Below are positions 1-62,229 of a stretch of 64,000 nt of DNA, piece after piece. Source of the stretch: Ischnura elegans (Eukaryota > Arthropoda > Insecta > Odonata > Coenagrionidae). Every line of letters begins with the position of its first letter. Position 1 is the stretch's first letter. The notes beneath the pieces were generated by a model, which was not told the origin of the DNA, did not search any database, and saw nothing but the letters and a program-made list of their open reading frames with translations. The translations under genes and the position numbers were made by a program. The DNA is taken from the NCBI RefSeq assembly GCF_921293095.1, contig NC_060251.1:64063585-64127584 (forward strand), in the 5' to 3' direction.

Positions 1-110
1 AAGTCCCCGGAAGTGGTCGCCGCCCAAGCGAAGAAAACGACATAATCCTACTGAGGAATCCTTGATCCATGACGCAAAACTATAATGTCCGCTCACTACG
101 CCGATTCATC

Positions 111-728
111 TTAACACTTTCCGAAGACATTTCCCAGAGGAAAGTAGACGAAATCGTTCTCGACTCGAACCTCGTCAATGCCTTCCGCCGTGTGGAACGA
201 AAAATAATGGGAGCACATCGCCGGCGTCACACCTTCGAACGTGACTCGCTTCACGTTCTTCAAGGGGAACAACGGACCGTCCGCTCCACTCCGCAGCTCG
301 CTCTCCAGCGTCAGGTCGAGCCCGTCGCTGCCGGGGGAGGAGCAGGCGGTATGGTTGTGGACGAAAGTGACCATTTGGACGCCGGACTCGGTGGTTTGAC
401 TACCCGCGTGGAAGGTCGAGTCGCAGTCGACGTCTTCCTTACTGCTGTTCTGCTTCGAGACCAAATATATCCTGGTCCAGGTGATGTTCGCCAAGGAGTG
501 AGAGAACGAACAGTAAGGGTCCCGGGAGGTGGACTCGCCCTTGGTGCACACCAAAGTCACGTCTTGCGAGAGCAATCCGCGAGGTGGCGTCCAAGCAACA
601 TTTTGAGCCGATCCGCTGACTCCGCTACGATCCAATTTTAAGATTACCTTGTATTCGGTGGCGTGAGCGATGAGCAGCGGCACCAGGAGGAAGGAGATCC
701 AATTTACGCAACTACTATAAAGACCCAT
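111..728 (-). CDS. Small secreted six-cysteine protein, copy A (205 aa, family unknown)
   Basis: Uninterrupted minus-strand frame from ATG at 728-726 to TAA at 113-111. A longer reading upstream starts only at a TTG, so the ATG is preferred for a eukaryote. Residues 1-23 form a signal peptide (hydrophobic ISFLLVPLLIAHA). The mature part has six cysteines (61, 73, 102, 129, 172, 205) and N-glycosylation sequons NIT (81), NSS (94) and NHT (125), fitting an extracellular protein. Its paralogue is at 9,396-10,067. Relative to that copy, A has lost 12 and 24 bases in the second half, both multiples of three, and a TAT-to-TAA change ends the protein right after GKC, seven residues early. I do not recognise the family and give no function. 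The antisense frame over the same DNA is a shadow. Confidence 0.72.
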   Translation of the reverse strand: MGLYSSCVNWISFLLVPLLIAHATEYKVILKLDRSGVSGSAQNVAWTPPRGLLSQDVTLVCTKGESTSRDPYCSFSHSLANITWTRIYLVSKQNSSKEDVDCDSTFHAGSQTTESGVQMVTFVHNHTACSSPGSDGLDLTLESELRSGADGPLFPLKNVKRVTFEGVTPAMCSHYFSFHTAEGIDEVRVENDFVYFPLGNVFGKC

Positions 729-2465
729 TTTAAAGGCCGCAAGCGTCAAAGTCGGGATGGACAAGGTTATTTATTCAGAGATGTATAAGCGCGAGCGGTT
801 GTCCGCCAACTAAATAACGGGGAGATGATATTAAAACGATTTTCCTTCTAAGACTCCCCTCCTCTGCATCTCTGGCTGAGGAGAGCCGATCAATGATCTT
901 GCCCTATGGCATTCTCTCTTATCAGATCCCATACTTGGAATGCGACAAACAAACACAAGCTTTTGGTACGACTTCGTCGAGTTAAAAAAAGGAGTTCGAG
1001 AAGGCGATTTAATTTTTAACTAGTTTTTTATAATACCATTTTCTCATTTAAATGTTGTAGGCTAATTATAGTTTTATTTTTTGGTTTGAAATATTAATTG
1101 ATTTGCAAATATCAAAGTGCACAGCGTTCCGCTCTCTTATTATTTAAATATATGTACCTATTTCTCACCTTTTATTTCATTTTGACAATCGGGTCAGAGT
1201 TAATGCTAAATAGAGTTTAGATCGAAAAAATTAAATAACGAAATGGGGTCTTTAGATACAGCATAACTTTCGTTGCTCAATTTTGCGTTAATTTTCAGGG
1301 CCGGCTTATGGGCCGGGACACCAAAACCCCCGGTAGGGGAGCGACACAACAGCAGTTTGGCCGGTAAGTATTTTGCCTGAAACGGGCCAAGTCAATTTCG
1401 ACTAACTTTAATTCATAAACGAAGTAAAAAAATTTAATCATGATTGAAACGAAAACAACCCGTTTTTAAGGGTTTTCGATCAATATAACAAATATGGTAA
1501 CCCATTCCTCGCGATAAAGCAATTTCATTTCGACCAAACTATAGTAAGTGCAATACTTGATACGTGATTGCTTCATGCAGTATTTATTGGAAACATATGT
1601 ACGTATCTACCAAGTAAAATTAATGTACTAATGCAAAATTCATGCAAATTAATGCAAAATTGCACAACAATAATTATGGTTTCATAATTTTATGCATCTT
1701 TAAGGTATTTAGTTACTTGTAAAAACTCAAGTGCACATTACCAATGCAGCGGCAATAGGTTCTAGTACGCCCAGCAGATATGATCATAACTTTGAACACA
1801 ACTTGTTGATATCCGCTTTAACATGTTCGTTTGCTTTAATGTTTAACCTAATATTGCGAATAAATGAATTTAGTACCTCCAATAATTTTTAAATTTTCTA
1901 TGTTACTGGCTAACCCAATACTTGGGTAGAGTGGGACACTTTATCAAAGAAGATACTTAATTGTTTCAACTATTGTAATTAGCTTATCTCTCGAGGATTT
2001 TTTAAACACGTTTTGGAATATATTCTTCGGTAATTACAAACATTTACTAAATAACCAGTAATATCCTTTTGAAAATAAATTTTAGATACCGCAACTGCCA
2101 CACTGTGATCCAGTCACTGATGACCGAGTCATTTATGATATGAAGTGCTTTCCTTTTCAAAACCTTAAATCATTCGCCGTTCAATGCCATCAAATGATTA
2201 ACTGATGAAATGAAAAAGTCAGCGATAAAGATGATCCCGGTCAGTCTCAATGGGTTACTATTAATACCCGCTGCAGTTATTATCGCCTTTTATCTGAAGA
2301 ATAAGGAAAAAAGGGATTTAAATACCCTGCACTGTACACTCCAGTGCGCATCAATAAATACAGGAATCCACAAGTGGAAACCGCTTCTTTCCAGTTATTC
2401 CAACTCGCTCTGACATAGTGAAATTTTAATATTTCTATAGTTTTCCATGTATTGATTAATACTTA
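729..2465. other. Upstream flank of copy A gene, AT-rich non-coding
   Basis: Matches 10,068-11,781 with many substitutions and small indels. Apart from the short promoter motifs I see no gene, exon or mobile element ends here. Confidence 0.5.
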
Positions 2466-2761
2466 CAAGGGCGTACCCAGGATCAAAAATAGAGGGTGGC
2501 AAGCCACGGCCGATCAAGTTTAACACAGATAAGGTAATGAAAACAAAATTTAAAGAAAATTATAACATCGCTCCATTAGTTCTTAAAATAATTTGATCCG
2601 AAAAAAGTTTTTATTTTATTAACATGTTTTATACTAATATCACTTCGCTTGGATTTATATCAAATTCAAATCTGTTCAAAATTTTCGTTTTGAACTAAAT
2701 TTACCTTTGCTTCTAGGGGGAGGAAACTGCCCCCTCCCGTCCCCCGCTGGGTACGCACATG
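2466..2761. mobile_element. hAT-like MITE, family with GCGTACCCAG ends (copy in segment A)
   Basis: Terminal inverted repeats CAAGGGCGTACCCAG and (reverse complement) CATGTGCGTACCCAG. Flanked by imperfect 8 bp duplications AATACTTA / CATACTAA. No coding capacity. The counterpart in segment B is 11,782-12,072, so the insertion predates the duplication. Other copies: 7,361-7,630 and 21,261-21,502. Confidence 0.7.
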
Positions 2762-3037
2762 CATACTAACACCAACTAATTCTTCCGCGCGTGGTGGAAA
2801 AAGGAAAATATGGCCCACAAAAACTAGAAGTAACAGACCAGATAATCCGTGGGGAACGAGAGGAGGGGTATTATCGGTTTGATATCCCACAAAAATGTAA
2901 TGACTGGGAATTCCTGCGGACTGCATAACATCGCGACGTATTTCCCCCCTTCCCGGAAACGGAAAACTTGATATCTCAATCCGTTTCGTTGATATAGGTC
3001 GTCAGGAAGGCTTTAACGTAATGCGACTGTCCCAACC

Positions 3038-3243
3038 ATGAGCGGATCCAGGATTTTTTTCTAGGGGGGAGGAACAAACAAGGCCATTCCCAGGATTTTG
3101 TTCCGGGGGGGGGGGGGGGTCAAACGTATATCCCGTAATATAAAACGAACGCAATTTCAACGAGACCGTTTTAAAAAATCTTGCATACTTTTTAAGGGTG
3201 TGGGGGGGCACGTGCCCCCGGGTACCCCCTAGATTCACCTATG
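3038..3243. mobile_element. MITE with GCGGATCCAGG-type ends (segment A)
   Basis: Ends ATGAGCGGATCCAGG and, reversed, CATAGGTGAATCTAGG around G-rich subterminal runs. Present in B at 12,888-13,108. No open frame of note. Target duplication not clear. Confidence 0.5.
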
Positions 3244-3469
3244 GCCCCATCCTCATACAAAGGCGATAAAATTTGATACAGTGAAATAAATAAAAATAGT
3301 GTAATTGACCAAGTTTTATGGGCACTAGTATAAGAGAAAATAACTAATATATTTCAAAGAACTTTACTTTAAATCGGATAGGGGGTCACTGATATTCGCA
3401 AATGTATAATTCGCATCGAATTCTCAATCTAAAATTAAACAAATTAAATGAAAAAACGTCAAATTCGCA

Positions 3470-4200
3470 AAGGTTTATGGGGAGATGTTCTTTACCCTTC
3501 ACCCCTACCGCACCAGGACTGACGGCCTATCCTTTCCAGACCGCCCTCTGAGCAGCCCTGCCGATAGCCGATAACATTAATGGGTGTCACACTGAAAATG
3601 AATAGAACCTCCCCAATTAGCTTAATCTCCCTAAGTTCATTGACGCCGCATGATTCACCGTGGGAAAATCCACGAATAGCTCACTCCGAGATAACATGAG
3701 ACATCTTAGTCACCGATAAAGGGAGTCGACCCCCGGAACACAGAGGAGGGTGATTGGGGGAGTTACCGGGAATCCAGGCCTCGCAGACCGCACGCGTCAG
3801 AAGACAAAGGGTCCAAGGTACGCTTCGTATGCTCGAGACTTCATTTAAAGGTTCAAGCACGGTCCAACGGTGACCGTCGGCTGGACATGTAAAAACACGC
3901 CCGTGGATAACCGTTGGACTGGCTGAGGTGAATGTTTACTTCCAGGAGACCGGCGTTACCGTAAGCTGACGAAGACCACGGAAGACACCACGACAACAAT
4001 GTACAACGCATGATCCTTCACCTTCTCCTGACGCCCTGCACTCGAAGCCAACGAATTCAGTCGTTCATAGGTGCACCGGACACATCGGCAGAAGCAGCCT
4101 TCGCAGCAACAACCTCTTCCGTCCCGCGAAAACGAGGATATATTCTGTGCCGTACTCCCGAAAGGTATGATTAGCATTTCTTTGACAAAATAGACTAGTT
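3470..4200. other. Strongly conserved block shared by both segments (copy A)
   Basis: Compared with 13,330-14,060 this block differs at only about 2% of positions by eye, with an apparently identical core of ~200 bases (3,680-3,860). Flanking non-coding sequence differs about five times more and has indels. It lies ~3 kb upstream of the minus-strand secreted-protein gene. A 73-codon minus-strand frame (3,956-4,177 / 13,820-14,041) is kept at equal length, but its Cys-rich low-complexity peptide is not convincing. Candidates: 5' exon or promoter/enhancer, non-coding RNA, or a recent gene-conversion tract. Confidence 0.5.
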
Positions 4201-4300
4201 GTACACCTACATCTATATCTACATAATACCCTGCGAGCCACCTCTAGGGTGTTTGGCAGGGGGTGATCAGTCACCAGCATGCAATAGGATTCCCACATAC
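4190..4300 (-). repeat. Dispersed repeat with GTAGATGTAGAT tail
   Basis: Minus-strand unit with core GGTGACTGATCACCCCCTGC, then GGTGGCTCGCAGGGTATTA and an ATGTAGATATAGATG tail. Related copies: 5,100-5,190, 5,440-5,530, 14,060-14,155, 15,060-15,172, 15,640-15,752, ~57,635-57,720, ~59,470-59,555 and ~63,755-63,838. A hexamer-like tail fits the 3' end of a LINE or SINE, but no polymerase was found attached. Confidence 0.55.
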
Positions 4301-4575
4301 ATAGGCGGATTTAGAGGGGAGGGACGGGATCATGTGCCCCCGCCATACGCTTAAAAAATAAACGAGATTTTTAATACAAATTCATTTTACATTTTAATAA
4401 AGTAGTTATAAATATTTCCATATTACTAATTTTTATGGTAAAATTAAGAGTACATTTCGTGGCTAAATTGTTGCTTGTAGTTTTTGATCCCAAATACGAG
4501 AAGACCGTTTTCCTATCAGACCCTGGTGTCCCCCCACCCCCTCCACAGAAACAAAAATCCCGGATTCGCCCTAGC
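4301..4575. mobile_element. MITE with GCGGATTTAG / GCGAATCCGG ends (segment A)
   Basis: Left ATAGGCGGATTTAGAGG; right end, reversed, GGCTAGGGCGAATCCGGG. AT-rich interior. Shared with segment B at 14,165-14,443. Confidence 0.5.
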
Positions 4576-5439
4576 CTACATGCACACCACACGGTACCAT
4601 ATTCATGAAAAGGCAAAACTTGCCAACTACTCATGAAGGCAATCTACTCATGCAGCTAGAACACAAAAAATATGATCTTAAAAATATTCAGAAAATTCAG
4701 AAACATGCATTAAGGAATACATAAGTTACTATGATACCCTAAAAGCATCTAATATATTTGTGATTTCTAACGCTGCCGTAATAATCTCCTATCGTTCGTG
4801 AAAAAAGGACATTCTGAATGTATCGGTTCTACAGTCTCTCTCTCTCTTATATTATTTATATCATCTTTAGTAAATGCAAGAGTTATGTTCAGATGGAAAA
4901 GAGCATATTAACTGCGAATGAACGGAACGCTTTAAAAAATCCATAAATGCACGGTCATGTTCATTTTTATGAAATGTCAGATACGCTCTAATTCCACTTA
5001 ACATTACTGAACTCCTCGCAACGGTATCTCAATTAATATAATTACCGGCGTCACTCGCTTGGCTGGCTCATTCCAAGGTTTTTTCCATATCTCTAACATT
5101 GCATGCATTTGATCTAGGAATTACTGGTGATTGGTCACCCCCACACATGCAAAAAACCATACAGATGGCTCGCAGGGTATTATGCAGATGTAGTGCTACT
5201 GACCCTTTAGAAATATTCGAATGGGAAACATTGTCAGATAGTAGATTGAAAACTAGACTAACCTATTCTGTAAATTCATCAGCAGTTAATTTTCCGAAGA
5301 ATTGAGCCATGTCTTACGAACGCCAACATACTACTGTTGATCATACCATAAAAAATGAAATAAGTGAGATACAATGTAGAACAAATAGATTTAGAATTTT
5401 ATCCGTGATCGATAAGAGACAATTGTTTTGGACCGTGTT

Positions 5440-5530
5440 GTGTGCATGTTGAAATATGCATGCTGGTGATCGCTCACCCCCAGTCAAAGACCCTAGAAAA
5501 GGCTCGCGAGGTGTTATGTATGTCACATGG
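5440..5530 (+). repeat. Dispersed repeat, diverged copy
   Basis: TGCTGGTGATCGCTCACCCC then GGCTCGCGAGGTGTTATGT; tail lost. Another diverged copy lies at 5,100-5,190. Confidence 0.45.
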
Positions 5531-5607
5531 TGGTATGCAGATGTAAAATTTGCAAAATGCTTTACCTCTCACCTAAATTCACTAACATCACTATTATTTC
5601 TCACCAG

Positions 5608-5727
5608 CTAACGATAGAATTGATACGAGATCAAGAGCATTGCCAGCTCCACACCGTCAGTGACGAAACCTCTCCTCATTAAGGACATCCGGCTGTAAAT
5701 ATCGTCAGAATGGTCGACAGTTGCGAG
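5608..5727 (+). other. Candidate non-coding exon, copy A
   Basis: Bounded by a good acceptor (TATTTCTCACCAG) and an excellent donor (GAG/GTAAGCG), both kept in copy B (15,814-15,932). In copy A every plus frame has a stop, and B differs by a 1-base indel, so if transcribed it is likely untranslated. Could be chance splice-like motifs inside the duplication. Confidence 0.25.
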
Positions 5728-5844
5728 GTAAGCGATTTTTTTCATTTTTTTAGTTTTATTGAACGGGACAATTTCAATATACGCCAATTCTACGGCCATT
5801 AAGATGCTCAACTTAATTAAAAATACAGAATTCTTGGAGTACAC

Positions 5845-6529
5845 AATAGGTGGTTTCCTATTATTTTTTTATTGCCTAAATCGAAAGATTAGTAATCGAA
5901 AAAAAAAGATTACTCCTGGAACACGTATTTCACGCTTTTAGATTTTTAAATCACGATATCTATTTTTCGCGATTAATTGAAAAGTGAAAATTTGCAAGCG
6001 CGCGTAAACGCGACGGGTAAGTATGAATGCTGGGAAAACTCCGTGTGGCGTCGTTCTGGTTCCCACTGCCGCAAGTGAGGTGACCTTGGGGAGAGGCTTA
6101 GAGCGCTGATACAACGTAGGATGCTAATAAGTAGCTGAGTACTCTGAAAGATGGTAGCGCTTGGCTTAAATAAGGATTATTAATACCCTATCAAACGAAG
6201 AAAACTTTCCGACCTTAGCCAGTTTTAATAGGTGATTATTAAGACATGTTTCCCTGAGCTCTGTGCCTCTTGCATGCATTGGTAATCTCAGACGGTGTAA
6301 AACTCCCATTTACTCGAATAGAAACTAGCTCCCAGGGACGTCACGTGGAGTGGCATTGTATGGGCGCCAACTTGGCCTTTTTCAAATGAGGCTAAAATTT
6401 ACCATTGCCATTCGTCTAAACTGGCATTTGTAAAACCAAATAATTTTGTATATAATGAATACACTAATGCTGGGTAACGAATCGCAATCAATGCCTTTCG
6501 TTTTCTTTGATGAAGGAAACTACCCTATT
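5845..6529 (+). mobile_element. AATAGGGTGG MITE, copy 1
   Basis: Non-autonomous DNA element of about 650-690 bp with inverted ends (A)ATAGG(G)TGGTTTCCT and, reversed, AATAGGGTAGTTTCCTTC. Four copies in the window. The empty site is visible in segment B (18,936-18,945, acacaattcagag), which proves insertion. All copies are bordered by AT on both sides (AT/AGGGTGG...ACCCT/AT), compatible with an AT or TA dinucleotide target. Superfamily unresolved. Confidence 0.85.
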
Positions 6530-6536
6530 CAAAGTA

Positions 6537-6730
6537 CCCGCAGCTTGACTTCAGGGTTGTTCTCCGCGTCAAATCATCTTCGTACGAAAGTTTCGCCGGC
6601 GTTGCAACAGTTGTCTTCAGGTTTGCATGCAAACTTGCATCCGACACTTCAAACCTGAAGAAACTTGCAGCAACAAGAGCGAAACTGTCTGATGAACACG
6701 AATCTACGCAGAGGACAACCCATAAGCCAG
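6537..6730. repeat. Foldback (long inverted repeat), copy A
   Basis: Diverged partner of the palindrome at 18,950-19,140. Arms around the central tttgcatgcaaa still pair in part (e.g. GGGTTGT with ACAACCC, AGTTTCG with CGAAACT). Confidence 0.55.
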
Positions 6731-7360
6731 TGGGGTTACCCACGAATTTTGTTCGGGTCGGGGGGGGGTGGGGTCCAAAAGGGGTACTTTTTAAAAGTAG
6801 GGTACTTAGTAGAGGGTTTTAAACTAATTTTTGCACGTTTCATAATCGAAGAAAACGAAATGTATATAACTTAATATATTGTTCATAACATTGAATTGAT
6901 AGTGTTTTATGTGAAAGTTTAAAAAATACTATGTATCTTCTATTGCGAGAAAATAAAGTTGAACTGCGACTTAAGAATTTCCCGGTTAAGAAAAGAGAGG
7001 CTGAATCAAATACAATTAGGGAAGAGCTGCATTTTTTGCTGACCTCATTGAGTAAATAAATGTGGGTTCTCATATTTTTAGAGACTAATATGTATCATTA
7101 AAACAGTGGATCTTGCAGTTCAAATATTAAGTCCATTGTAAAGGGCAGGGTTTAGGATCTCTCGGCCCTCACAATCATCCTCAGGTATGGGTTCTTCTGG
7201 AGAGGGTACAGAATACTACCCAGGACAAGTGTCAAGGTTCACCACCAGATTTAAAAAAATAGTAACCTTAGATATTAAATGGGACAAAAAACTTTAGCAA
7301 CAATTTAAAATTAATTTTCAATACCGTCATGGCTAAAAAAAATCACTTTAAAACTAGGAG

Positions 7361-9193: not shown

Positions 9194-9395
9194 CCAAAGT
9201 TTTCAAAAAATAATATGTCTTAGGCAACTTAAATTCGTAAAGACATTTTAAACGGATTCAATTTTTTCCCACACGGACAGTAAATTACTAAAAAAAAACA
9301 GCACAACATCGGGGAAGTCCCTGGTCATCGTCCAAGAAAACGAGATAATTCAACTGAGGAATCCTTTATCCATGACGCAAAGCTATGATGTCCGC

Positions 9396-10067
9396 TCACT
9401 CCGCCGATTCGTCATAGCACTTTCCGAATACATATCCTTCAGGAAAGAAGACGAAATCGTTCTCGACTCGAACCTCGTCAATGCCTTCCTCCGTGTGGAC
9501 CGAAAAATATTTGGGGCACATCTCCGGCGTCACACCTTCGAACTTGACACGCTTCACGTTCTTCAAGTGGAACAACGGACCGTCCGCTCGCGGCACCAAA
9601 CGGTAGCGGCTACCACTCTGCAGATCGCTCTCCAGCGTACGCAGGCGCACCAGGTCGAGCCCGTCGCTGCCGGGGGAGAAGCAGGCGGTATGGTTGTGGA
9701 CGAAAGTGACCATTTGGACGCCGGACTCGGTGGTTTGGCTACCCGCGCGGAAGGTCGAGGCGCAGTACACGTCCTCCTTACTGCTGTCCTGCTTCGAGAC
9801 CACCAATATCCTGGTCCAAGTGATGTTCGCCTCGGAGTGAGAGAACGAACAGTAAGGGTCCCGGGAGGTGGACTCGCCCTTGGTGCACACCAGAGTCACG
9901 CCTTGCGAGGGCAATCCGCGAGGTGGCGTCCAAGCAACATTTTGAGCCGCGCCGCTGACTCCGCTACGATCCAATTTTAAGATTACCTTGTACTCGGTAG
10001 CGTGAGCGACGAGTAGCGGTACCAGGAGGAAGGAGATCCAATTTACGCAACTACTATAAAGACCCAT
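9396..10067 (-). CDS. Small secreted six-cysteine protein, copy B (223 aa, family unknown)
   Basis: Minus-strand frame from ATG 10067-10065 to TGA at 9398-9396. Signal peptide at residues 1-23, then a 200-residue mature chain with cysteines 61, 73, 102, 129, 184 and 217 and sequons at N81 and N125. All six cysteines are kept in copy A, consistent with three disulphides. It is fuller than A: it has residues LVRLR and the SRYRLVPR stretch missing there, and a YDESAE tail after the last cysteine. An AATAAA lies about 200 bases past the stop. The paralogues share the reading frame and the promoter-proximal sequence. No known domain recognised; function not assigned. It could also be one exon of a larger gene, but ATG, signal peptide, stop and poly(A) signal all fit a single-exon gene. 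Confidence 0.75.
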   Translation of the reverse strand: MGLYSSCVNWISFLLVPLLVAHATEYKVILKLDRSGVSGAAQNVAWTPPRGLPSQGVTLVCTKGESTSRDPYCSFSHSEANITWTRILVVSKQDSSKEDVYCASTFRAGSQTTESGVQMVTFVHNHTACFSPGSDGLDLVRLRTLESDLQSGSRYRLVPRADGPLFHLKNVKRVKFEGVTPEMCPKYFSVHTEEGIDEVRVENDFVFFPEGYVFGKCYDESAE

Positions 10068-10114
10068 TCTAAAGGCCGCAAGCGTCAAAGTCGGGATGGA
10101 CAAGGTTATTTATT

Positions 10115-10175
10115 CAGAGATGTATAAGCGCGAGTGGTTGTCTGCCAACTAAACAACGGGGAGATGATATTAAAA
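10115..10175 (-). promoter_or_regulatory. Candidate core promoter region of copy B
   Basis: About 50-110 bases upstream of the ATG. It contains a TATA-like CTTATACATC on the minus strand, kept in both paralogous segments (A: ~779-800). Further upstream both copies also keep a GATA-type CTGATAAGAG (A ~917-927). These are short motifs, so confidence is low. Confidence 0.25.
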
Positions 10176-11781
10176 CGATTTTCCTTCTAAGACTCCCCTC
10201 CTCTACATCTCTGGCTGAGGAGAGCCGATCAATGACCTTGGCCTATGGCATCTCTCTTATCAGATCCCACTCGTGGAATGCGACAAACAAACGCAAGCTT
10301 TTGGTATGACTTCGTCGAGTTAAAAAAAGGAGTTCGAGAAGGCGATCAAATTTTTAACTAGTTTTTTATAATAACATTTTCTTTATTTAAATGTTGTAGG
10401 CTAATTATAGTTTTATTTTTTGGTTTTAAATATTAATTGATTTGCAAATATCAAAGTGCACAGCGTTCCGCTCACTTGTTATTTAAATATATGTACCTAT
10501 TTCTCGCCTTTTATTTCTTCTTGACTATCGAGGCAGCCTTAATGTGAAATAGAGTGTAGATAAAAACAATTAAATAAAGAAATGGGGCATTTAGGTACAG
10601 CATAACTTTCGTAGCTCAATATTGCGTTAATTTTCAGGGTCTGCTTAAGGGCCGGGACACCTAAACCCCCGGTAGAGGGGCGACACAATGGCAGTTTGGC
10701 CGGTAAGTATTTTGCCTGGAACCGACCCAGTCAATTTCGACAAAACTTTAACTTATAAACGAATTAAAAACTTTTATCATAATTGCAACGAAAACAACCC
10801 GTTTGTAAAGGTTTTCGATCAATTTACCAACTATGGTAACCCATTACTCGCGAAAAAGCAATTTTAATTTGATCAAACTTTAGTAATTGCAATGTTCGAT
10901 ACGTGATTGAAATATGTAGTATTTATTGGAAATATATGTAGGTATCTACCAAGTGGATTAATGTACAAATGGCAAAATAGCGCTACGATAATTATGCTTT
11001 CATAATTTTGTGCATCTTAAAGTAATTTAGTTATTTTATTTAACTCAAGTGCGCATAACCAATGCGGCGGCAGTAGGTTCTAGCACGCCCAGCAGGTATG
11101 GCTATAACTTTGAACACAACTTGTTGATTTCCATTTAACATGTTCGTTTGCATGATATTTGACCTAATATTGCGATTAAATGACTTCAGTACCTCGAATT
11201 AATTTAAAATTTCTATGTTACTGACTAACCCAATACTTGGGCAGAGTGGGACACTTTTTATCAAAGAAGAAACTTAATTCTTTTAACTATTTTAATTAGC
11301 TGTATCTCTCGCAGATTTTTTTATACGTTTTGGAACACATGCTACGGTAATGACAAACATTTCACCAAATCATCAGTAATATACTTTTGAAAATAAAATT
11401 TAGATACCGCACCTGCCACACTGTGATCCAGTCACTAATGACCGAGACATTTACGACATGCAGTGCTTTCCTTTGCACAACCTTAAATCATTCGCTGGTC
11501 GATGCCATCAAATGATTAACTGATGAAATGAAAAAAGTCAGCGATAAGGATGACCCCGGTCAGTCTCAATGGGTTAACTATTACACCCGCTGCAGTTACT
11601 ATCGCCTTTCATCAGGGGAATAAGGAAAAATGGATTTAAATCCCTGCACTGTACACTCCACCGCGCATCGATAATATAGAAATCCACAAGCGGAAACCGC
11701 TTCTTTTCCGTTATTTCAACTCAGTCTGGCATAACGAAATTTTAATAATTCTATAGTTTTCCATGTATTGATTCATACTTA

Positions 11782-12072
11782 CAAGTGCGTACCCAGGATC
11801 AAAACTAGAGGGGTTAAGGGGGGTCATTCGAGTTATAACACAGAAAAGGTAATGAAACCAAATTTTCAAGAAAATTATAACATCGCTTTCTTAGTTTTTA
11901 TAATTATTTGATCCGAAAAAATGTTTTTTATTTTAATTGCATGTTTCATTCTAATATCACTTTTCTTGGATTTAAAGAAAATCTGTTCAAAATTTACTTT
12001 TGGAACTAAATTTACCTTTGCTTCTAGGGGGATGCAACTGTCCCTTCCTGCCCCCCGCTGGGTACGCCCATT
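11782..12072. mobile_element. hAT-like MITE, GCGTACCCAG family (copy in segment B)
   Basis: Orthologous within the duplication to 2,466-2,761. Ends CAAGTGCGTACCCAG... with target duplication CATACTTA / GATACTTA (7 of 8). Confidence 0.7.
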
Positions 12073-12298
12073 GATACTTACACCAACTAATTCTTCCGCG
12101 CGTGGTGGAAAAAGGACAATATGGTCCACAAAAACTAGAAGTAACAGACCAGATAATCCGTGGCGAACAAGAGGAGGGGTATTATCGGGTTGATATCCCA
12201 CAGAAATTTTACGATTCGGAATTCCTGCGGACTGCATTACATCGCGACGTATTTCCCCCCTTCCCTTCCAAGGAAATCCTGATTTCGGCCATGAGACC

Positions 12299-12492
12299 AT
12301 AGGCGGATCTAGGGGGGGTGGCACGGGGGCACATCCCCCCCCAGACCCTTAAAAAATATGAAAGATTTTTAATACGTTCCATATCATTGCGTTCGTTTTG
12401 TATTACAAGGTATCCTTGTACCTCCCCAGCGCAAAACCCTGGATACGGCTTTGCTTGTACCCCCCCAGAAAGAAATCCTGGATCCGCCCCTG
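12299..12492. mobile_element. hAT-like MITE present only in segment B
   Basis: Ends ATAGGCGGATCTAGG and, reversed, CAGGGGCGGATCCAGG. Flanked by perfect duplications CATGAGACC (12,290-12,298 and 12,493-12,501; 8 or 9 bp). Lies in a stretch that copy A lacks altogether. Confidence 0.75.
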
Positions 12493-12887
12493 CATGAGAC
12501 CATCCATAGTTCGTTCGTACATATATCTTAAAACGAAACGAAGAAGAAACATAAAATTTACATTCAAATTCATTTTACTACAACCCACGATTTTGAGAAA
12601 TGTTTGAGGTCAAGGATTGAAAAATTATACATGATTGGTAAATGTGGATTGAAAATAGAGTTTTGCGGGAAAACTTCTTAATTCCGTTAAGATATGATTG
12701 ATTGGTTTAAAAGATAAAGTCAGCGACAAGAGGAAGATAAAAACGGCGATTTTTAAGCATGCTGTAAAGGTTACAATACTTGTTGAAGACATTAACTCCA
12801 ATACCAGAAACGGAAAATTTGATATCTCAATCCGTTTCGTTAATACAGGTCGTCAGGAAGACTTGAATGTAATGCGATTGCCCCACC

Positions 12888-13108
12888 AAGGGGCGGATCG
12901 AGGATTTCTCTCTGGGGGGGGGAGGGAGGCACAAACAAGGCCATTCCCAGGATTTTGTTCTGGGAGGGGGCACAAGTACACCCCGTAATACAAAACGAAC
13001 GCAATTATAACGGGACCGTTTTAAAAATCTTGCATACTTTTTAAGGGTCTGAGGGGGGGGGGACCCGGGGGCACGTGCCCCCCGGTCCCCCCCCCTATAT
13101 CCACCTAT
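12888..13108. mobile_element. MITE with GCGGATC-type ends (segment B)
   Basis: Counterpart of 3,038-3,243, with ends GGGGCGGATCGAGG and, reversed, CATAGGTGGATATAGG. Confidence 0.5.
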
Positions 13109-13329
13109 GGTCTCATCCTCATACAAAGGCGTAAAATTTGAACCAGTGGAATAAATAAAAATAGTGAAATTGACTAAGTTTTAAGGGCACTAGTAAAAGA
13201 GAAAATAACTAATATAATTCCAGGAACTTTATATTAAAGCGGATAGGGGGTCGCTGATATTCGCAATTGTAAAATTCGCATCGAATTCTTAATGTAAAAT
13301 TAAACGAATTAAATGTTAAACGTCTAATT

Positions 13330-14060
13330 CGCAAAGGTTTATGGGGAGATGTTCTTTACCCTTCACCCCTACCGCACCAGGACTGACGGCCTATCCTTTG
13401 CAGACCGCCCTCTGAGCAGCCCTGCCGATAGCCGATAACATTAATGGGTTTCACACTGAGAATGAATATAACCTCCCCAATTAGCTTAATCTCCCTAAGT
13501 TCTTTGACGCCGCATGATTCACACTGGGAAAATCCACGAATAGCTCACTCCGAGATAACATGAGACATCTTAGTCACCGATAAAGGGAGTCGACCCCCGG
13601 AACACAGAGGAGGGTGATTGGGGGAGTTACCGGGAATCCAGGCCTCGCAGACCGCACGCGTCAGAAGACAAAGGGTCCAAGGTACGCTTCGTATGCTCGA
13701 GACTTCATTTAAAGGTTCAAGCACGGTTCAACGGTGACCGTCGGCTGGACATGTAAAAACACGCCCGTAGATAACCGTTGGACTGGCTGAGGTGAATGTT
13801 TACTTCCAGGAGACCGGCGTTACCGTAAGCTGACGAAGACCACGGAAGACACCACGACAACAATGTACAACGGATGATCCTTCACCTTCTCCAGACGCCC
13901 TGCACTCGAGGCCAACGAATTCAGTCCTTCACAGGTGCACCGGACACATCGGCAGAAGCAGCCATCGCAGCAACAACCTCTTCCGTCCCGCGAAAACGAG
14001 GATATATGCTGTGACGTACTCCCGAAAGGTATGATTAGCATTTCTTTGACAAAATAGACT
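13330..14060. other. Strongly conserved block shared by both segments (copy B)
   Basis: Partner of 3,470-4,200. It is moderately GC-rich compared with its AT-rich surroundings, and no mobile-element ends are visible inside it. Confidence 0.5.
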
Positions 14061-14164
14061 AGTTGTACACCAACATCTGTACCTACATTATACCCTGCGA
14101 GCCACGTCCAGGGTGTTTGGCAGGGGGTGATCAGTCACCAGCATGCAATAGGATTCCCACATCC

Positions 14165-14443
14165 ATAGGCGGATTTAGAGGGGAGGGACAGGGGCACGTG
14201 CCCCCGCCATACGCTTAAAAAATAAACGAGATTTTCAATACAAATATTAAATAATTTTATATTTCAATATAGAAGTTATAAATATTTCCATATTACTAAT
14301 TTTTATGGTAAAATTAAGAGTACATTTAGTAGATAAATTATTGCTTTTAGTTTTCAACCCGAATATGAGAAGACCGTTCTCCTGTCAGACCCTGGTGTCC
14401 CCCAAACCCCACCACAGAAAAAAATCCCGGATTCGCCCTAGCC
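14165..14443. mobile_element. MITE with GCGGATTTAG / GCGAATCCGG ends (segment B)
   Basis: Counterpart of 4,301-4,575, same ends and interior with point changes. Confidence 0.5.
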
Positions 14444-15059
14444 TACATACACACCACACGGTACCACATTCATGAAAAGGCAAAACTTGCCAACTACTCA
14501 TGAAGGCAATCTACTCATGAAGCTAGAACACAAAAAATATGCTCTTAAAAATATTAAGAAAATTCAGAAACATGCATTAAGGAATACATAAATTAGTATG
14601 CGTAACTACAAGTCATCTATGGTATTTGTAATTTTTAACGCTGCGGTGGTAGTCTCTTGTTAATGGTGGAAAAAACGACATTCTGAGTGTATCGGTTCTA
14701 CAGGTTATCTCTCTTATTTTATTTATATGATCTTTAGTAAATGCAAGAGTTATGTTCAGATGGAAAATAGCATATTAACTGCGAATGAACGGAACGCTTT
14801 TAAAAATCCATAAATGCACGGTCATGTTCATTTTTATGAAATGACAGATACGCTCTAATTCCACTTAACATTACCGCACTCCTAGAAACGCTGTCTCAAT
14901 TAATATAATTAACGGCGTCACTCGCTAGGATGACTCATTGCATTTTTTTCCATAGTTCTAACTTTGCATGGATTTGCTATAAGAATTACTAACCATTGGC
15001 AAGTTTGGTCTTTGCATGAATATGCATGTATATTTTGCTCATATGCATACTATTTCTAT

Positions 15060-15172
15060 GACCGTGCGGTGTGCATGTGGCGGTCCTCTTGCATGCTGCA
15101 TGTTGGTGATTGGTCACCCCCTGCCAAACAGCATACAGGTGGCTCGCTCGGGTATTATGTAGATGTAGTGTA
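15060..15172 (+). repeat. Dispersed repeat with GTAGATGTAG tail
   Basis: Plus-strand member of the family described at 4,190-4,300: GTGTGCATGTGG, GTTGGTGATTGGTCACCCC, GGTGGCTCGC, TATTATGTAGATGTAG. Confidence 0.55.
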
Positions 15173-15639
15173 ACTGACCCCTTAGAACTATTCGAATGGA
15201 AATCACTGTCAGATCGTAGATTGAAAACTAGACTAACCTATTCTGTAAATTCATCAGCAGTTTATTTTACGAAGAAGTGAGCCATATCTTACGAACGCCA
15301 ACATACTACGGTTGATCATACCATAAAAAATGAAATAAGAGAGATAGAATGTATTACAAATAGATTTACAATGCCGATTTTATCCGCGATCTATAAGAGA
15401 ATATAACAACAGCATTAGGACTTAGAAATGGATTTGGTGACCGATAATGTAGCTTACTAACTTATACATTCCTTGACGTATGCTTCTGATTTTACTAGTA
15501 TTTCTCTTAGCATGTTTTGCATGTTCTATCTTCAAAGGAAGATTGTCTTCGTTAGTAGTCGTGAATTTTTGCCTTTGCATATTTTGGAAGTATTTTAATA
15601 GTGTTATTTTTATATAGTATAGAATTTATTAGTATGCGT

Positions 15640-15752
15640 AATGTTATTTGGACCGAGTGGTGTGTATGTGGGACACTGCATCTGGTGATTAATAACCCCT
15701 TGCCAAAGACCCTAGAGATGGCTCGCAAGGTGTTATATAGATGTAGATATAT
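15640..15752 (+). repeat. Dispersed repeat with ATAGATGTAGATA tail
   Basis: Plus-strand member: GGTGTGTATGTGGG, CTGGTGATTAATAACCCC, GATGGCTCGCAAGGTGTTA, ATAGATGTAGATA. It forms most of a chance open frame 15,601-15,936. Confidence 0.5.
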
Positions 15753-15813
15753 TTTTTGCAAGACGCTTTACCTCTCACCTAAAGTCACTAATTTCACTAT
15801 TATTTCTCACCAG

Positions 15814-15932
15814 CTAACGATAGCATTGATGCGAGATCAAGAGCATTGCCAGCTCCACACCGTCAGCGGCGAAACTTTCCTTACTATGGACATCCGGCTG
15901 TCAATAACGTCAGAATGGTCAACTATTGCGAG
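15814..15932 (+). other. Candidate exon, copy B
   Basis: Partner of 5,608-5,727 with the same splice-site motifs. Open in one plus frame here but closed in copy A. Confidence 0.25.
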
Positions 15933-15959
15933 GTAAGCGTTTATATTATTTACTCGCAC

Positions 15960-16400
15960 GCTCCGCGCGCTCGTTAAGGGGCTCCGCCCCTTAAAACCCC
16001 GGTTCCGGCTTCGCCGTCTACATTTGTGGTCGTTCGAAGAGTTTTGAAGTTCGAATAATCTCAACACGGCTAGGGGCCGGCTTCGCCGGCCAGGGGGTAG
16101 GGAGGTGCCCCACTCATTCCTCGGAACGGCTTCGCCGTTCCTCGCTGAAGGGCGGCTTCGCCGCCTGGGGGTTTAGTGTGCCAGAGGGCGAGGGCATTTC
16201 GGAACTGTTTCACCGTCATTCGTTTAAGGGGCGGCTTCGCCGCCCAGAGGTGAGGGGAGTCCACAGCGGTTGCGCCGCTTGAACATCGGGGCGGCTACGC
16301 CGCCCGGGGGTTGCTGAAGCTCCCCCTCGCCTACGCCAGTTCCTCGTTGTGGGGCGGCTTCGCCGCCTTGGGGTTGAGGAGCCCCCCGCGGCTGCTCCGC
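15960..16400. repeat. Cluster of GC-rich short palindromes
   Basis: At least eight hairpins with a common GGCGGCTTCGCCGCC-like core: 15,974-15,994 (TTAAGGGGC/GCCCCTTAA), 16,075-16,091, 16,123-16,141, 16,150-16,165, ~16,229-16,246, ~16,265-16,280, 16,288-16,305 and ~16,351-16,368. Stems are 6-9 bp with a 3-5 base TTC/TCC/TAC loop. Stems vary while self-complementarity is kept, which points to selection or spread of the palindromes rather than a coding sequence. Confidence 0.8.
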
Positions 16401-16442
16401 CTAGTCCTTATAAATGGTCTTCCCCACCGAGAGGGGTGCCCA

Positions 16443-18115
16443 GGGGGATTCGGGGATTTTAGTGTGTTATGCATGCGGTCACCAAAAGTCCACAGTGATC
16501 ATGTAGCGATGATTGTAAAAGGTAGTGCAATGCGGATTAATAGTGGCGACAAGTACCCATAAAAGAAGACTTAATGGCAAGTTTTTCATTTTTATTTCGG
16601 GGGGTTCCTACGGAATAACGGGGGTTTTATACTTGTGTTAACCAGTGGTCACTAAAAGTTCTCATAAATTCCGTGCCGATAAGTCCTAGGGGACCGGAAG
16701 AGTGGTCTTACGATTCTTTTCCCTGGAGAGGCTATTTATTAGAAATTTTTTGGGAGGTTTCACGGGGTTATCGGGGGTTTTAATAAGTGGTAGGGGCATC
16801 GGTTAAATTGTGTCGAAAACTATTCGGAAAGGCGAGTTTAAATTTGTTTAATTTTTTTTTCGGCGATGTTCCAGGAGGTAATCGGGGGTGTTCTGGTATT
16901 TTTTCCCGTATGGTTTACGGTGGCTCGCCCTCACCAAATATTCCGGATCTAGAGCTCAGAGGGGACGGGTAGTGCGGCGTAATGTTTGCGAGAAGTTCCC
17001 AAATAGGAGACTAAATGACACATTTTACATTAGGGGGGATTTCACGGGGATACCGGGGGTTTAAATGTGTGTACTCCTGGCGGTCACCATCCATTCACAT
17101 AAATGTCGGGGGGATGAGTCGTTGGGGGCGGTGGAATAGTCACGAAAAGGACCTAAAAAGTAGACTTATTTGAAAATTTTATTTTTTTGGGGGGGGGGTT
17201 TACCGGGGGTTTATAGGTTTTTACTGCCAGCGGTCATCAATCGTCCACATCTATAGGGTGGTTTCCTATTATTTTTTTATTGCCTAAATCGAAAGATTAT
17301 TACTCCTGGAGTACGTATTTCACGCTTTTAGATTTTTAAATGACAATATCTATTTTTAGCGATTAAATGAAAAGTGAAAATTTTCAAGCGCGCGAAAACG
17401 TGACGCGTATGTAGGAATGATGGGAAATCTCTCCGTACGTCGTATTTCTGGTTCCCCCTCCGCCCGGTGAGGTGACCTTGAGGCGAGGCTTAGCGCTGAT
17501 ACGTCGCAGGCTGCCAGCAGGTAGCCTAGTACCCTGCTGGCTGGTAGCGCTTGGCTTAAATAAGGATTATTAATACCGTAATAAACGAGGAAAACTTTCC
17601 GACCTTAGCCAGTTTTAATAAGTGATTATTAAGACATGTTTCCCTGAGCTCTGCGCCTCATGCATGCATTGGTAACCTCAGACGATGTATAACTCCTATC
17701 TTCTCCTATAGAAACTAGGTCCCTGTGACGTCACGTGGAGTGGCATCGCATGGGCGCCAATCTGGCCCTTTTCAAATGAGGATAAAAATGGACCATTGCC
17801 ATTCGTCTAAACCGGCATTTATAAAACGAAATAATTTGTATATTATGAATACACTAATGGTGGGTAACGAATCGCAATTATTGCCTTTTGTTTTCTTTGA
17901 TGAAGGAAACTACCCTATTCCGTAGCGATGAGTGGTAAGGATTGGAAAAGCGGCGGAATTGTGACGAAAGGTACCCGACAAGGCTACTTATATGCTAATT
18001 TTAATTTTTTAGGGGGTTTCGGGGGGTTAAAAGATGACGGTACTATATGGTCACATTCATTTACTGTCATGTCTAAAAGAATTGTGCCCTATGACATCCA
18101 TATTTCGAAAGTAAT
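16443..18115. repeat. Diverged G-rich tandem array, ~155 bp unit
   Basis: Seven units begin near 16,443, 16,598, 16,751, 16,861, 17,033, 17,189 and 18,013. Each starts with spaced G runs (e.g. GGGGG..TTTCACGGGG..ACCGGGGGTTT) and most go on to a GCGGTCACCA motif and a TCCACAT-like motif. Spacing is 153-172 bp (one unit 110), and 157 across the last pair once the nested MITE is removed. Units are well diverged, so the array is old. The G runs could form quadruplexes. Confidence 0.75.
17253..17919 (+). mobile_element. AATAGGGTGG MITE, copy 2, nested in the G-rich tandem array
   Basis: Same family as 5,845-6,529. Inserted in the sixth unit of the array at 16,443-18,115. Removing its 667 bases restores the ~157 bp unit spacing. 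Confidence 0.85.
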
Positions 18116-18605
18116 ACAATAAAAAGCAAACCAGTCCCTGACAAATGTTAGCAGTGCCCGCCATTTTTATTTTTTCGCGGTTAAATCCATTAAATAATTA
18201 TTAAACTGTTTATGTTTTCTGAAAGACAATGCATAGCTGTATGTAACTACAAAGTTTAAAAGAAATCGGTTGAGTTAAAATTGACAAAACCTTGTGTTAA
18301 TCTTTTGAAAATCGTAATTTTCGGTGATTTTCGGAATATTTTAATTTTATTCTCAGTAACCAAGGACGATGAAAGAAAAACGTTACCTACATTTCGTAGA
18401 CTATGTTATGAGCATATATAATAATCATTTTCAATATCCTACACCTGTAATTACGACTAGGGGAGCGGAAGTTATGAAATATTTTTCGAAAAACCAATTT
18501 TTGGACGCCATTTTGGCAGCAAATTTCTTAAAAAGAAACTTATAACATAGCATAATTACGTTACTACATTTACCAGCTTTCAAAAAATGCATTAACGATC
18601 CGTGT

Positions 18606-18764
18606 GGCACGCACGGTTCGCGCGCAGTAAAATAAAAACCGGAAGACGGTCCCCGGAAAAAGCGCGATTTCGGCCATTTTGTCGTCCTAGCGACGACACG
18701 TGGCGGAAACTTCCGGTTTTCGGATTTTTCCTCCGAATCATTTCCGGTTCCCCGCACGCGTGCC
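18606..18764. repeat. Nested inverted repeat
   Basis: Three complementary pairs sit inside one another: GGCACGC (18,606-18,612) with GCGTGCC (18,758-18,764); AAAACCGGAAG (18,635-18,645) with CTTCCGGTTTT (18,710-18,720); GTCGTC (18,681-18,686) with GACGAC (18,692-18,697) around loop CTAGC. Just beyond lies a TGAGTGAGTCAGTCAC stretch. Confidence 0.65.
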
Positions 18765-18949
18765 AAATTTCAGCTCTCCAGCACTTCTAGAACTGGTCGG
18801 GAATTTGTATCCATGAGTGAGTCAGTCACCACGAGGGCTGTATATAGATAGGATTTATCTTTATTGAACGGGACATTTTCACTACGGCCAATAAGACGCT
18901 CAACTTATTTAAAAATACCGAATTCTTTAAGTACACAATTCAGAGTACC

Positions 18950-19140
18950 CGCAGTTTGGCTTCCGGGTGATCCTCCGCGTCGATTCATCTTCGTACGACA
19001 GTTTCGGCGGCGTTGCAGCAGGCGTCTTCAAGTTTGCATGCAAGCTTTCATCCGACATATCACACCAGAAGACGCCTGCTTCTACAACAGCGAAACTGTA
19101 GTATGAAGATGAATCGACGCGGAGGAAAACCCGGAAGCCA
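18950..19140. repeat. Foldback (long inverted repeat), copy B
   Basis: Arms 18,957-19,029 and 19,068-19,140 (about 73 bp) are largely complementary: TGGCTTCCGGGT with ACCCGGAAGCCA, GCGTCGATTCATCTTC with GAAGATGAATCGACGC, AGGCGTCTTC with GAAGACGCCT. The 38-base loop contains TTTGCATGCAA. A hAT MITE sits in the right arm, and pairing resumes beyond it at 19,378-19,390 (CGGAAGCCAAACCGC). Low GC skew and no coding frame. Confidence 0.75.
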
Positions 19141-19376
19141 ATGGGGTAGCCAGGAATTTTGTTCGGGAGGGGGTCCAAAATCAGGGGGTAATTTTTAAAA
19201 GTAGGGTACTTAGTTGAGGGTTTTAAACTAATTTTTACACGTTTCATAATCGAAAAAATTTCACTTTTCAAAGAAATCTTTTGAAAATTCGTGATCTTTT
19301 GATATTATGTTTTCTTTTATGAAGCAAAGTAATGGTGTTTTTTATTCCGGACCCCCCCCCCTCGCTACGCCAACTG
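19139..19376. mobile_element. hAT-like MITE with 8 bp target duplication
   Basis: Ends CAATGGGGTAGCCAGG and, reversed, CAGTTGGCGTAGCGAGG. Flanks CCGGAAGC (19,131-19,138) and TCGGAAGC (19,377-19,384), 7 of 8. The left part also exists in copy A from 6,728, so it predates the duplication. Confidence 0.75.
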
Positions 19377-20580: not shown

Positions 20581-21215
20581 AATAGGGTAGTTTCCTTCAT
20601 CAAAGAAAACAAAAGGCATTGATTGCGATTCGTTACCCACCATTAGTGTATTCATAATATACAAATTATTTGGTTTTATGATTCCCAGTTCGCTGCATTT
20701 GAAAAAGGCCAGATTGGCGCCCATGCGATGCCACCCCACGTGATGTCAAGGTTTCTGTATGAGTGTATTGGAGTTATACATCGTCTGAGATTACCAATGC
20801 ATGCATTAGGCACAGACTTCAGGGAAACATCTCTTAATAATCACCTAATTAAAACTGACTAAGGTCGGAAAGTTTTCTTCGTTTGATAAGGTATTAATAA
20901 TCATTATTTAAGCCAAGCGCCACCAGTTAGCAGGGTACTCTGCTACCTGCCAGCATCCTGCGTCGTATCAGCGCTCAAAGCCTTGCCCCAAGGTCACCTC
21001 ACTTGCGGCAGCGGGAACCTGAACGACGTCACATGGGAGTTTTCCCGGCATTCATACTTAGCCGTCGCGTTTTCACGCGCTTGAAAATTTTCACTTTTCG
21101 TTTAAACGCGAAAAATAGATATCGTCATTAAAAAATCTAAAAGGTTAAATACATACTCCAAGAGTAATAATCTTTCGATTTAGGCAATAAAAAAATAATA
21201 GGAAACCACCCTATT
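20581..21215 (-). mobile_element. AATAGGGTGG MITE, copy 3 (reverse orientation)
   Basis: Begins AATAGGGTAGTTTCCTTCAT and ends ...AGGAAACCACCCTATT. Homologous to copies 1, 2 and 4 over its whole length. Confidence 0.85.
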
Positions 21216-27912: not shown

Positions 27913-28563
27913 AATAGGGTGGTTTCCTTTTTTTTTATTGCCTAAATCGAAAGATTATTACTCCTGGAGTACGTATTTCACGCTTTTAGATGTTTAAATG
28001 ACGATATCTATTTTTCGAGATTAAATGAAAATTGAACATTTTCAAGCGCGCGAAAACGCGACGAGTAAGTATAAATGTCGGGAAAACTCCGTGTGACGTC
28101 GTTCTGGTTCCCGCAGCCGCAAGAGAGGTGACCTTGGGGCGAGGCTCTGACAAGCGCTGAGCGCTGATACGACGCAGGATGCTAGCAGGTAGCACTTGGC
28201 TTAAATAAGGATTATTAGTACCTTATCAAACGAAGAAAACTTTCCTACCTTAGCCAGTTTTAACAGGTGATTATTAAGACATGTTTCCCTGAGCTCTGTG
28301 CCTCATGCATGCATCGGTAACCTCAGACGATGTAAAACTCCTATCCTCTCGTGTAGAAACTAGGTCCCTGTGGCGTCACGTGGAGTGGCATCGCATGGGC
28401 GCCAATCTGGCCTTTTTCAAATGAGGATATAATTGACCCTTGCCATTCGTCTAAACCGGTATTTCTAAAACCAAATAATTTGTATATTATGAATACACTA
28501 ATGGTGGGTAACGAATCGCAGTCAATGCCTTTCGTTTTCTTTGATGAAGGAAACTACCCTATT
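27913..28563 (+). mobile_element. AATAGGGTGG MITE, copy 4
   Basis: Full-length copy with both ends intact. Like the others it encodes a short frame at its right end (MNTLMVGNESQSMPFVFFDE, then into the terminal repeat), which is probably incidental. Confidence 0.85.
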
Positions 28564-57948: not shown

Positions 57949-57950
57949 TA

Positions 57951-60035
57951 ATGGGGAACTTGCATGAATTTTTTTTATTTAACAGGCGGACAGAAAATTA
58001 TTTTCTGAATACAACAAAGAAAACCGCATGTAAATCTGAGTTTTCCTTCGCGAGATATTAAATGATAAATATAACGAATTTTAAAGCGCGGGAAAAACTC
58101 CCTCACTGCCGACGAAGCCTCGATGACGTCAAAGGTGCCTAAACATCACACGAAGCTATTGTTGTGATTGCTTGTAATAGTTGCCTGCCGTTGTGAGAGC
58201 TCCGTTTGTGAGACATGTTGATTGTTTTCTATTTAAGGATAAATATCCGACAATAGAGGCTCGAAAGCCTCATATTTTGTATTATTTATAATATTAATAA
58301 TTGAGTAAGGACATAAAATATAAAACTGAAGAAGTGAAACCAAATATTTTATAATATCTAATTGTAAGTAACATCGTTGTAGCAGTCTGAGCCACGGCCG
58401 TTGGAAGGGGGATACGTTAATTGTAAGTTGATGTTATCGACGGCATATCATTCATTTAAGTATGTAATTAGAACGATTTTGATGTTTACTAATGTCCGCT
58501 TAGCTTTTATATACAATAACTTCTTCCGTTTATTCGTAGGTACCGGAGAATTCGTCGTTTAGGACTGTATGTGCTTGTATTATGGGGTGAATTCCAGTCA
58601 ATGCAACTTTTGATCGCTGATTGGAGACATCTAGGAACATTTTTGTGCCAAAATAGTGTTATTTTCAACGTGACATCTCCCGTTAAGCTACTACTAATAA
58701 TCACAGTGCCAGTGGTTGTAATGCACAAAGTTTGACAAGGTTGAAAAATATCGGCCAAGAGTTATCAGTGTTCCATCGTGATTGAATTGTAAAAAGTGCT
58801 ATTACGCTATCGATAAATGTCTAACAGTAGTGTAAAAATTGTCAGTGGCTTGCTAATCTCCGTTGTTCACCGTAGATATGACATTTCACGATCACGCTAT
58901 TGAAATAAAAACTGTGAGTGAAGTTTGTTATTCCATTATTTCAACGAATAGTAGTGAGAAAAGTCACCTGTGTCACTTGTGTGGGCTAATTTAAGGGTTT
59001 AAATCAGTGAATAAATAGTTGTTTTCATCATAACGAGTTCTGTTATTGTAAGTTGTACGTGATGAATATAAGAATGTGACAGTGACATCCAGTTTTTGAT
59101 AAGAGTATTTGCCTATTTCCCACTATATTTTTATGGTATATGCTAGTATATTGTTTCTGGATTTACCTATATTATTGAAATAGGTTATAGCTTGTGTGTG
59201 TGTTGGCAGCGAAACCGATTCGCGATCTCACATGTGGATTGTGTGCGGACTGTTTTGCTGTGAATTCGTACCGTAGGACGGTTAGGACTACCTTCTCCGT
59301 TAATTCGGTGTTGCCAAATTCAACAGCACAGCTTACTCTAATGTCAACAGCACATCTTACGATCGTTATCCTCCAGTATTAATAGTTTCTTTTACAACTC
59401 GATTTGCCGCCGACGTATAGCAATAATTTGTCTTAACAAATTCCATGAGGGTCGTGGTATCAATTTTTGGTGTCCGAAAAAAAGGCTGGTGTCCTAACAC
59501 CCCATGCCACACGCCTTTTAGGCGGCTTGCGGGGTATTATGTAGATGTAGATGATGTAGATTTCAGGTGTACTATTCGAACGAGTGGCAACGTTATCATC
59601 CATTTTTCTGATCACTAAAACATACGAAGTGAAACGCTTGTACTTCATCATCCCGATGCCGCATTATTAATATCCCAAGTAATAATCTAGGCACAATGGC
59701 AATAGGAAAACTTGCCCAAGAATAACAGAACAAAATAAAGTGACGATGAGCGGCTAAATACTCCCGCAAAACAAATTTTACACCATGCGCTCAGCGTATT
59801 TCCCTACTCCCTACGGTTGTTTAGGCACCTATGACGTCACGCCTGGCCTCGGCAACGCTCGGGTGTCTTCGCGCAGTGGTCGGCTCAGAGAAATTTTTCT
59901 CGATTTTAAATGCAATTTTTTTATTTCTTTTGATGTTGAATGGAGAAACTGAAGGTATTTTTGCGAGCTAATGTATCCATTTGACTTATTCAAAATAGTT
60001 TTTAGAGCAATCTACGACCCATGCAAGTTCCTCAT
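57951..60035. mobile_element. ~2.1 kb terminal-inverted-repeat element, copy I
   Basis: Ends ATGGGGAACTTGCATG and, reversed, ATGAGGAACTTGCATG. TA flanks both sides here (57,949-57,950 and 60,036-60,037). Nearly identical to 62,230-64,000, which is cut by the window end. No transposase. The frames shared by both copies (minus 58,507-58,758; plus 59,194-59,382) are probably only carried along by recent copying. It contains a GTAGATGTAGATG-tailed repeat at 59,470-59,555. Confidence 0.7.
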
Positions 60036-62098: not shown

Positions 62099-62229
62099 GG
62101 CGGTAGTAGCGGCATAAGAAGGAGTAGAAAGAGTTCCGATCCTCTCTTAGCATACTCTGTTGCTCTACGATGAGAGTCCTACTCACGAACAATTTTGTCT
62201 AAAAGCTCTCGCAGGAGTATTGCAATAGA

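Follow-up and report, generated by a model that had tools for sequence, protein, structure and literature searches.

A Helitron of Ischnura elegans with an unusual 3′ terminus and with preferred targets that appear to resemble its own 5′ end

A 2.9-kb insert in the genome of Ischnura elegans is very probably a non-autonomous, minus-strand Helitron moved by a host-encoded RepHel protein (HUH nuclease plus PIF1-like helicase). It has exact ends, lies between A and T without a target duplication, faces an empty paralogous site and belongs to a family of high copy number. Its 3′ end is non-canonical, and the targets that it prefers look like its own 5′ end. We further put forward, as a reading that could equally turn out right or wrong, that its clade picks targets by a rule given by its own 5′ end, so that residents are preferred sites and arrays are seeded by repeat insertion, and that its 3′ signal consists of a series of GNA mini-hairpins whose stability is confined to the mobilised strand. 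Throughout, the window is the whole stretch analysed, 64,000 nucleotides of NC_060251.1 (64,063,585 to 64,127,584), and coordinates without another label are window positions.

Termini, empty site and copies in the genome

Two diverged duplicates, segments A (31-6854) and B (9334-19258), match at 87-90% identity over most of their length in a self-BLAST of the window. Each opens with a pair of ORFs; the 219- and 237-aa minus-strand ORFs have no Pfam match. A 5427-5747 corresponds to B 15647-15951, and A 5749-5847 to B 18854-18939, so that the flanks adjoin in A (5747/5749, the empty site, plus strand), whereas in B they stand 2.9 kb apart (15951/18854). The clean insertion unique to copy B that the initial annotation described is therefore real. 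Limits common to the genome copies place the element at 15953-18853 on the minus strand, 2901 bp including a nested MITE and all of it missing from segment A; the joined query form, with the MITE removed, is 2233 bp. The element reads TCCTATCTATATACAGCC...GCGTGCGAG. Its 5′ terminus, TCCTATCTATATACAGCC, preceded by a host A, lies at 18836-18853 (minus strand) and its 3′ terminus, GAGCGCGCGGAGCGTGCGAG, followed by a host T, at 15953-15972 (minus strand), both as read from genome copies and the latter also from counts of 3′ ends.

The host genome searched comprised 1.72 Gb in 110 contigs. A query of 15950-17250 gave at least 42 matches, the best 40 of 2316 candidates being scored. The copies listed start with TCCTATCTATATACAGCC, a few with TCTCTATTATATACAGCC or other variants, and end with GCGTGCGAG; among them a T directly follows 41 of 41 3′ ends, with GAG in 40/41 and GAT in 1/41. 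The exact 15-mer of the 3′ end, CGCGGAGCGTGCGAG, occurs 837 times in the genome, 829 of these followed by T, and a 25-mer of the same end 816 times; reversed-pattern controls gave 0 in all three cases. On the other side, a family-specific pattern yielded 29 distinct 5′ flanks. Four of them border directly on the 3′ end of a different Helitron; the remaining 25 reduce to 24 distinct host flanks. An A precedes the element in 22 of these 24; the two exceptions, in L019 (G) and L026 (T), are found where another Helitron ends with its 3′ terminus, or close to such a point. Together, the A before the 5′ end and the T after the 3′ end conform to the A|T insertion rule of Helitrons.

As in canonical Helitrons, Helraiser in bats and Xuan-Feng in wheat, as far as the available text of their descriptions goes (PMC4778049, PMC13286980), the element has a 5′ TC and a 3′ hairpin, sits between a host A and a host T without duplicating its target, and has a probable RepHel partner. 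The differences from those two elements as so described are a terminus of CGAG in the window copy instead of CTRR, a perfect hairpin 21 nt from the end with a second, terminal hairpin instead of a single one 10-15 bp away, and a positioned TATA in the target. Because of the CGAG end, we lower "canonical Helitron" to a variant. The search pattern for the ten terminal strings taken from all loci itself demanded CGAG, so those strings are no test of that feature. Helentrons and DINE-1/HINE likewise move by rolling circle without being autonomous, and some of them contain internal tandem repeats, but in the accessible parts of PMC4067079 they have TT targets and endonuclease-bearing partners; here the targets are A|T, and no endonuclease family is listed for the protein of the candidate partner locus, L073.

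Target motif and head-to-tail joints

The 78 3′ ends in the loci collapse to 52 distinct flanks, of which 14 are joints and 38 are host sequence; leaving out a near-joint (TCTTCC...) and a flank akin to another one from an array, we kept 36 host flanks. In 29 of these 36 sites TATA starts at +5 to +12 after the insertion point, and in 7 it is missing; the sites come from the top matches of the 15950-17250 query and from the 25-mer's first 30 occurrences by contig order, and were not sampled at random. Rotation of the same flanks gave a mean of 6.7 and a maximum of 17, with 0 of 20000 rotations reaching 29, and G+C-matched A|T sites of the window gave a mean of 3.6 and a maximum of 11 in 10000 draws. 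Genome-wide, TATA occupies +5 to +12 after 343 of 403 forward-strand ends, as against 17 of 403 at the control position +25 to +32; the forward strand alone was counted, since the reverse matches listed include several per site. When 203 exact joints are set aside, 140 of 200 forward-strand ends, some of them possibly duplicated sites, still have the motif. For the window copy, copy flanks place it at +8 of the host 3′ flank (15942-15945, minus strand).

The positioned TATA goes beyond AT-richness here. By inspection, the element's own 5′ end, TCCTATCTATATAC, carries TATA at +8 and +10, with TATATAC in the target register. We infer from this likeness that the target motif may reflect recognition of the element's own 5′ end. 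We imagine that Rep would recognise targets much like that end (A|TC..TATATAC) and would therefore prefer A|T sites with TATA 5-12 nt downstream. In a search of the Helitron target and array literature that was not exhaustive, the available text mentions AT-richness, AT/TT dinucleotides and a TNAT site, and we found no positioned TATA motif there. For Helentrons, the poly-T target preference has been hypothetically tied to their own termini (PMC4067079).

The same motif may bear on how copies come to adjoin each other. On both strands together, 407 of the 829 3′ ends are directly followed by TC-N5-TATATACA, that is, they abut exactly on a Helitron 5′ end. Clearly different 5′ ends are found in 6 of the 14 distinct joint flanks. 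Three of the 7 full-length neighbour pairs are 94.6% alike, one 98.2% and three 99.6-100%, and partial neighbours resemble the window copy at 82.3% (L014), 87.9% (L025) and 86.4% (L026). Both local copying and the joining of different elements thus occur. At L029-L033 (C105 and C19, ~64.3 Mb), units of 2232 bp follow one another in satellite-like arrays; their joints are exact, and the units fall into two types that are about 94.6% alike.

It seems to us that the 5′ junction of a resident would itself be a good target, and that insertion there could join copies exactly head to tail; the arrays might then be multiplied by read-through replication, unequal exchange or segmental duplication. Since host insertions are preceded by A, a newcomer fits the resident's 5′ junction (A|T..TATATAC) and does not fit its 3′ junction (G|T), and the newcomer probably went in at the resident's 5′ side. 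A self-like landing preference may thus be a partial explanation of the many head-to-tail copies. Exact 3′-5′ joints are likewise reported for the head-to-tail Helitrons of maize, bat and Metarhizium. Insertion at the AT formed by a host A and the resident's 5′ T has already been considered in maize (PMC2267711), and insertion into the resident's 5′ end in Metarhizium (PMC5148889), both sources leaving it open, in the text available, whether read-through replication or serial insertion builds the arrays. Relative to the arrays as described there, what differs here is that joints make up 407 of 829 ends and that the target motif includes the resident's 5′ end.

A plausible alternative, which we hold to be a little on the unlikely side, is that this is an ordinary Helitron whose arrays come solely from rolling-circle read-through or unequal exchange, the TATA reflecting the known liking for easily melted AT-rich DNA. 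Helraiser does favour AT-rich DNA, above all 3′ of the insertion site, according to the portions of PMC4778049 available, and the three neighbour pairs that are 99.6-100% alike are explained equally well by local copying. However, the count of 29 of 36 stands against 3.6 for G+C-matched A|T sites, the motif is restricted to about +5 to +12, and several joints link clearly different elements.

Internal structure, nested MITE and residence in the host

The last 520 nt of the element contain the hairpins. A subterminal hairpin, TTAAGGGGC-GGA-GCCCCTTAA, lies at 15974-15994, and a terminal one with one G-T pair (RNA energy parameters) and a GGA loop at 15956-15970; six more perfect triloop hairpins, with loops GAA (five) and GTA (one), occupy 16075-16091, 16123-16141, 16151-16165, 16229-16245, 16289-16305 and 16353-16367, all of these on the minus strand and found by hairpin search. 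The GC palindromes of the initial annotation are thus seven perfect triloop hairpins. Read on the TC...CGAG strand, all 7 have GNA loops (GAA in five, GTA in one, GGA in one) on stems of 6-9, and none has the complementary TNC, although the hairpins may share descent from one another and are then not independent evidence. GCGAAGC occurs six times in the element and GCTTCGC not once; one additional triloop with a stem of at least 6 lies elsewhere in it. Pooled over all loci, the 3′ regions contain 22 distinct stem-loop types, 13 of them with GNA loops and 0 with TNC; the window outside the element has 3 GNA and 1 TNC among 25 stem-loops. Plus-strand 15940-16440 folds better than its shuffles (z -2.06).

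GNA loops closed by G-C pairs form very stable DNA mini-hairpins, according to the available text of PMC4686876. By analogy with other Helitron work, the TC...CGAG strand is probably the mobilised strand, and one can picture the GNA hairpins folding on this strand once it is displaced and serving as a 3′ stop signal. Helitrons and GCGAAGC are mentioned together in 3 papers, and the text available for one of these shows no link between them.

Further inside lies a diverged, MITE-interrupted array of about 154-bp G-rich units (approximately 16440-18060, minus strand). Default Tandem Repeats Finder did not report it; relaxed settings gave a period of 154, 2.4 copies and 65% matches, and the base autocorrelation peaks at lag 154 (0.333 versus a mean of 0.264). 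A nested inverted repeat near the 5′ end (about 18604-18767) shows a modest fold excess, with z -2.49 and 4 of 200 shuffles equally good. Both features had been proposed from the letters, the former as a "G-rich 155 bp array", and both are present.

The host MITE placed inside the array is borne out by self-BLAST and by comparison with other copies: it spans 17254-17917 (664 bp, TAGGG...CCCTA), and its family has three further members in the window, at 5847-6527, 20583-21213 and 27915-28561. The empty site of the first of these four MITEs, seen in segment B, and that of the second, seen in other copies of the Helitron, both read AATT, and a target duplication is not evident; this pattern is reminiscent of the Spy group. 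At the window's MITE position, Helitron copies elsewhere read CACATCAATTCCGTAG, and the MITE-Helitron junction occurs at only two places in the genome, the window (C6) and C10. These two copies are 99.66% alike with different flanks, so the element moved between two loci with the MITE aboard. At C10, the copy with the MITE adjoins, through its 3′ end, a resident copy to which it is 98.2% alike.

Neither a protein family nor an RNA family was recognised inside the insert: 15953-18853 contains none of the window's 13 stop-to-stop ORFs of at least 120 aa, all Rfam families stayed below their gathering scores across the window, where ARAGORN likewise predicted no tRNA. Other parts of the window include an RVT_1 reverse transcriptase domain in a 553-aa open frame (43619-45280, minus strand), marking a retrotransposon, and a 1.8-kb direct repeat (57950-59721 and 62229-64000, 95.6% identical). 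A composition unlike the rest of the window had been claimed for the insert; 16001-17000 does have the highest G+C of the window (0.531), but 1-1000 comes close at 0.518 and 18001-19000 is ordinary (0.383).

The initial annotation took the DNA to be resident in this genome and suggested either a replication- or structure-driven element or organellar, viral or microbial DNA. The first description was right, the element being a Helitron, and residence is confirmed by same-ended copies that occur hundreds of times. Foreign DNA or an assembly contaminant is extremely improbable. The G+C content and palindromes that differ from most of the window, and the lack of a recognised family, would suit such an origin, but the 837 exact 3′ ends across host contigs, against 0 for the reversed pattern, together with common ends, host flanks and the empty paralogous site, reject it, and the Helitron ends, the A|T rule and a probable coding partner leave transfer unsupported. 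The annotation had itself allowed that multiple genome-wide copies would point to a host repeat, and the search for other copies and shared ends found many. Viral contigs scanned with one degenerate pattern from the 5′ region gave 0 matches, and literature searches with a palindrome string and a 5′-region string returned nothing relevant. A cut-and-paste element with a 5-bp target duplication is almost certainly wrong as well: ATTTA stands on both sides of the window copy, but flanks of the other listed copies share no duplication, only the A before and the T after.

The RepHel partner and what the target rule would mean

The Helitron reading calls for a coding partner. PF14214 has 119 matches in the host genome, of which 18 are stop-free in the match and lie in open frames of 1792-1925 aa. 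Three RepHel loci were read (L071, L072 and L073). L073 has a 1792-aa ORF with PIF1 helicase and Helitron_like_N domains, and its translation shows stretches that we take to be the HUH (as HAH) and two-tyrosine motifs. On the same strand, 2.6 kb downstream of the ORF, is a 3′ end 88.9% like the element's over 54 nt (E 7.7e-13), directly joined to a 5′ end, TCCCGTCTATATACAGCGGG, the only such 5′ end found in the locus. ORF and 3′ end probably form one element. A matching 3′ end was present in this one of the three loci; the sequence read at L071 and L072 gave no significant match. Since one of its members has such a 3′ end beyond its ORF, the RepHel group whose open frames span 1792-1925 aa is the probable partner.

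Near its N terminus, at residues 22-170, the protein of the L073 ORF has a domain resembling the tegument deubiquitinases of herpesviruses (PF04843, E 7e-7); a family of enzymes of this type is reported in a paper with 35 mentions of Helitron (PMC9741609). At C4, ~98.32-98.46 Mb, two RepHel matches lie 44,292 bp apart among clusters of head-to-tail joints, which suggests a large repeated block with coding and non-coding Helitrons.

In IS200/IS605 elements, target choice is tied to the donor-nicking specificity of the HUH enzyme. If our reading is true, a positioned motif that matches the 5′ end of the element itself would directly explain serial insertion, and in this Helitron family too the choice of targets would be linked to how specifically the HUH enzyme nicks its donor.
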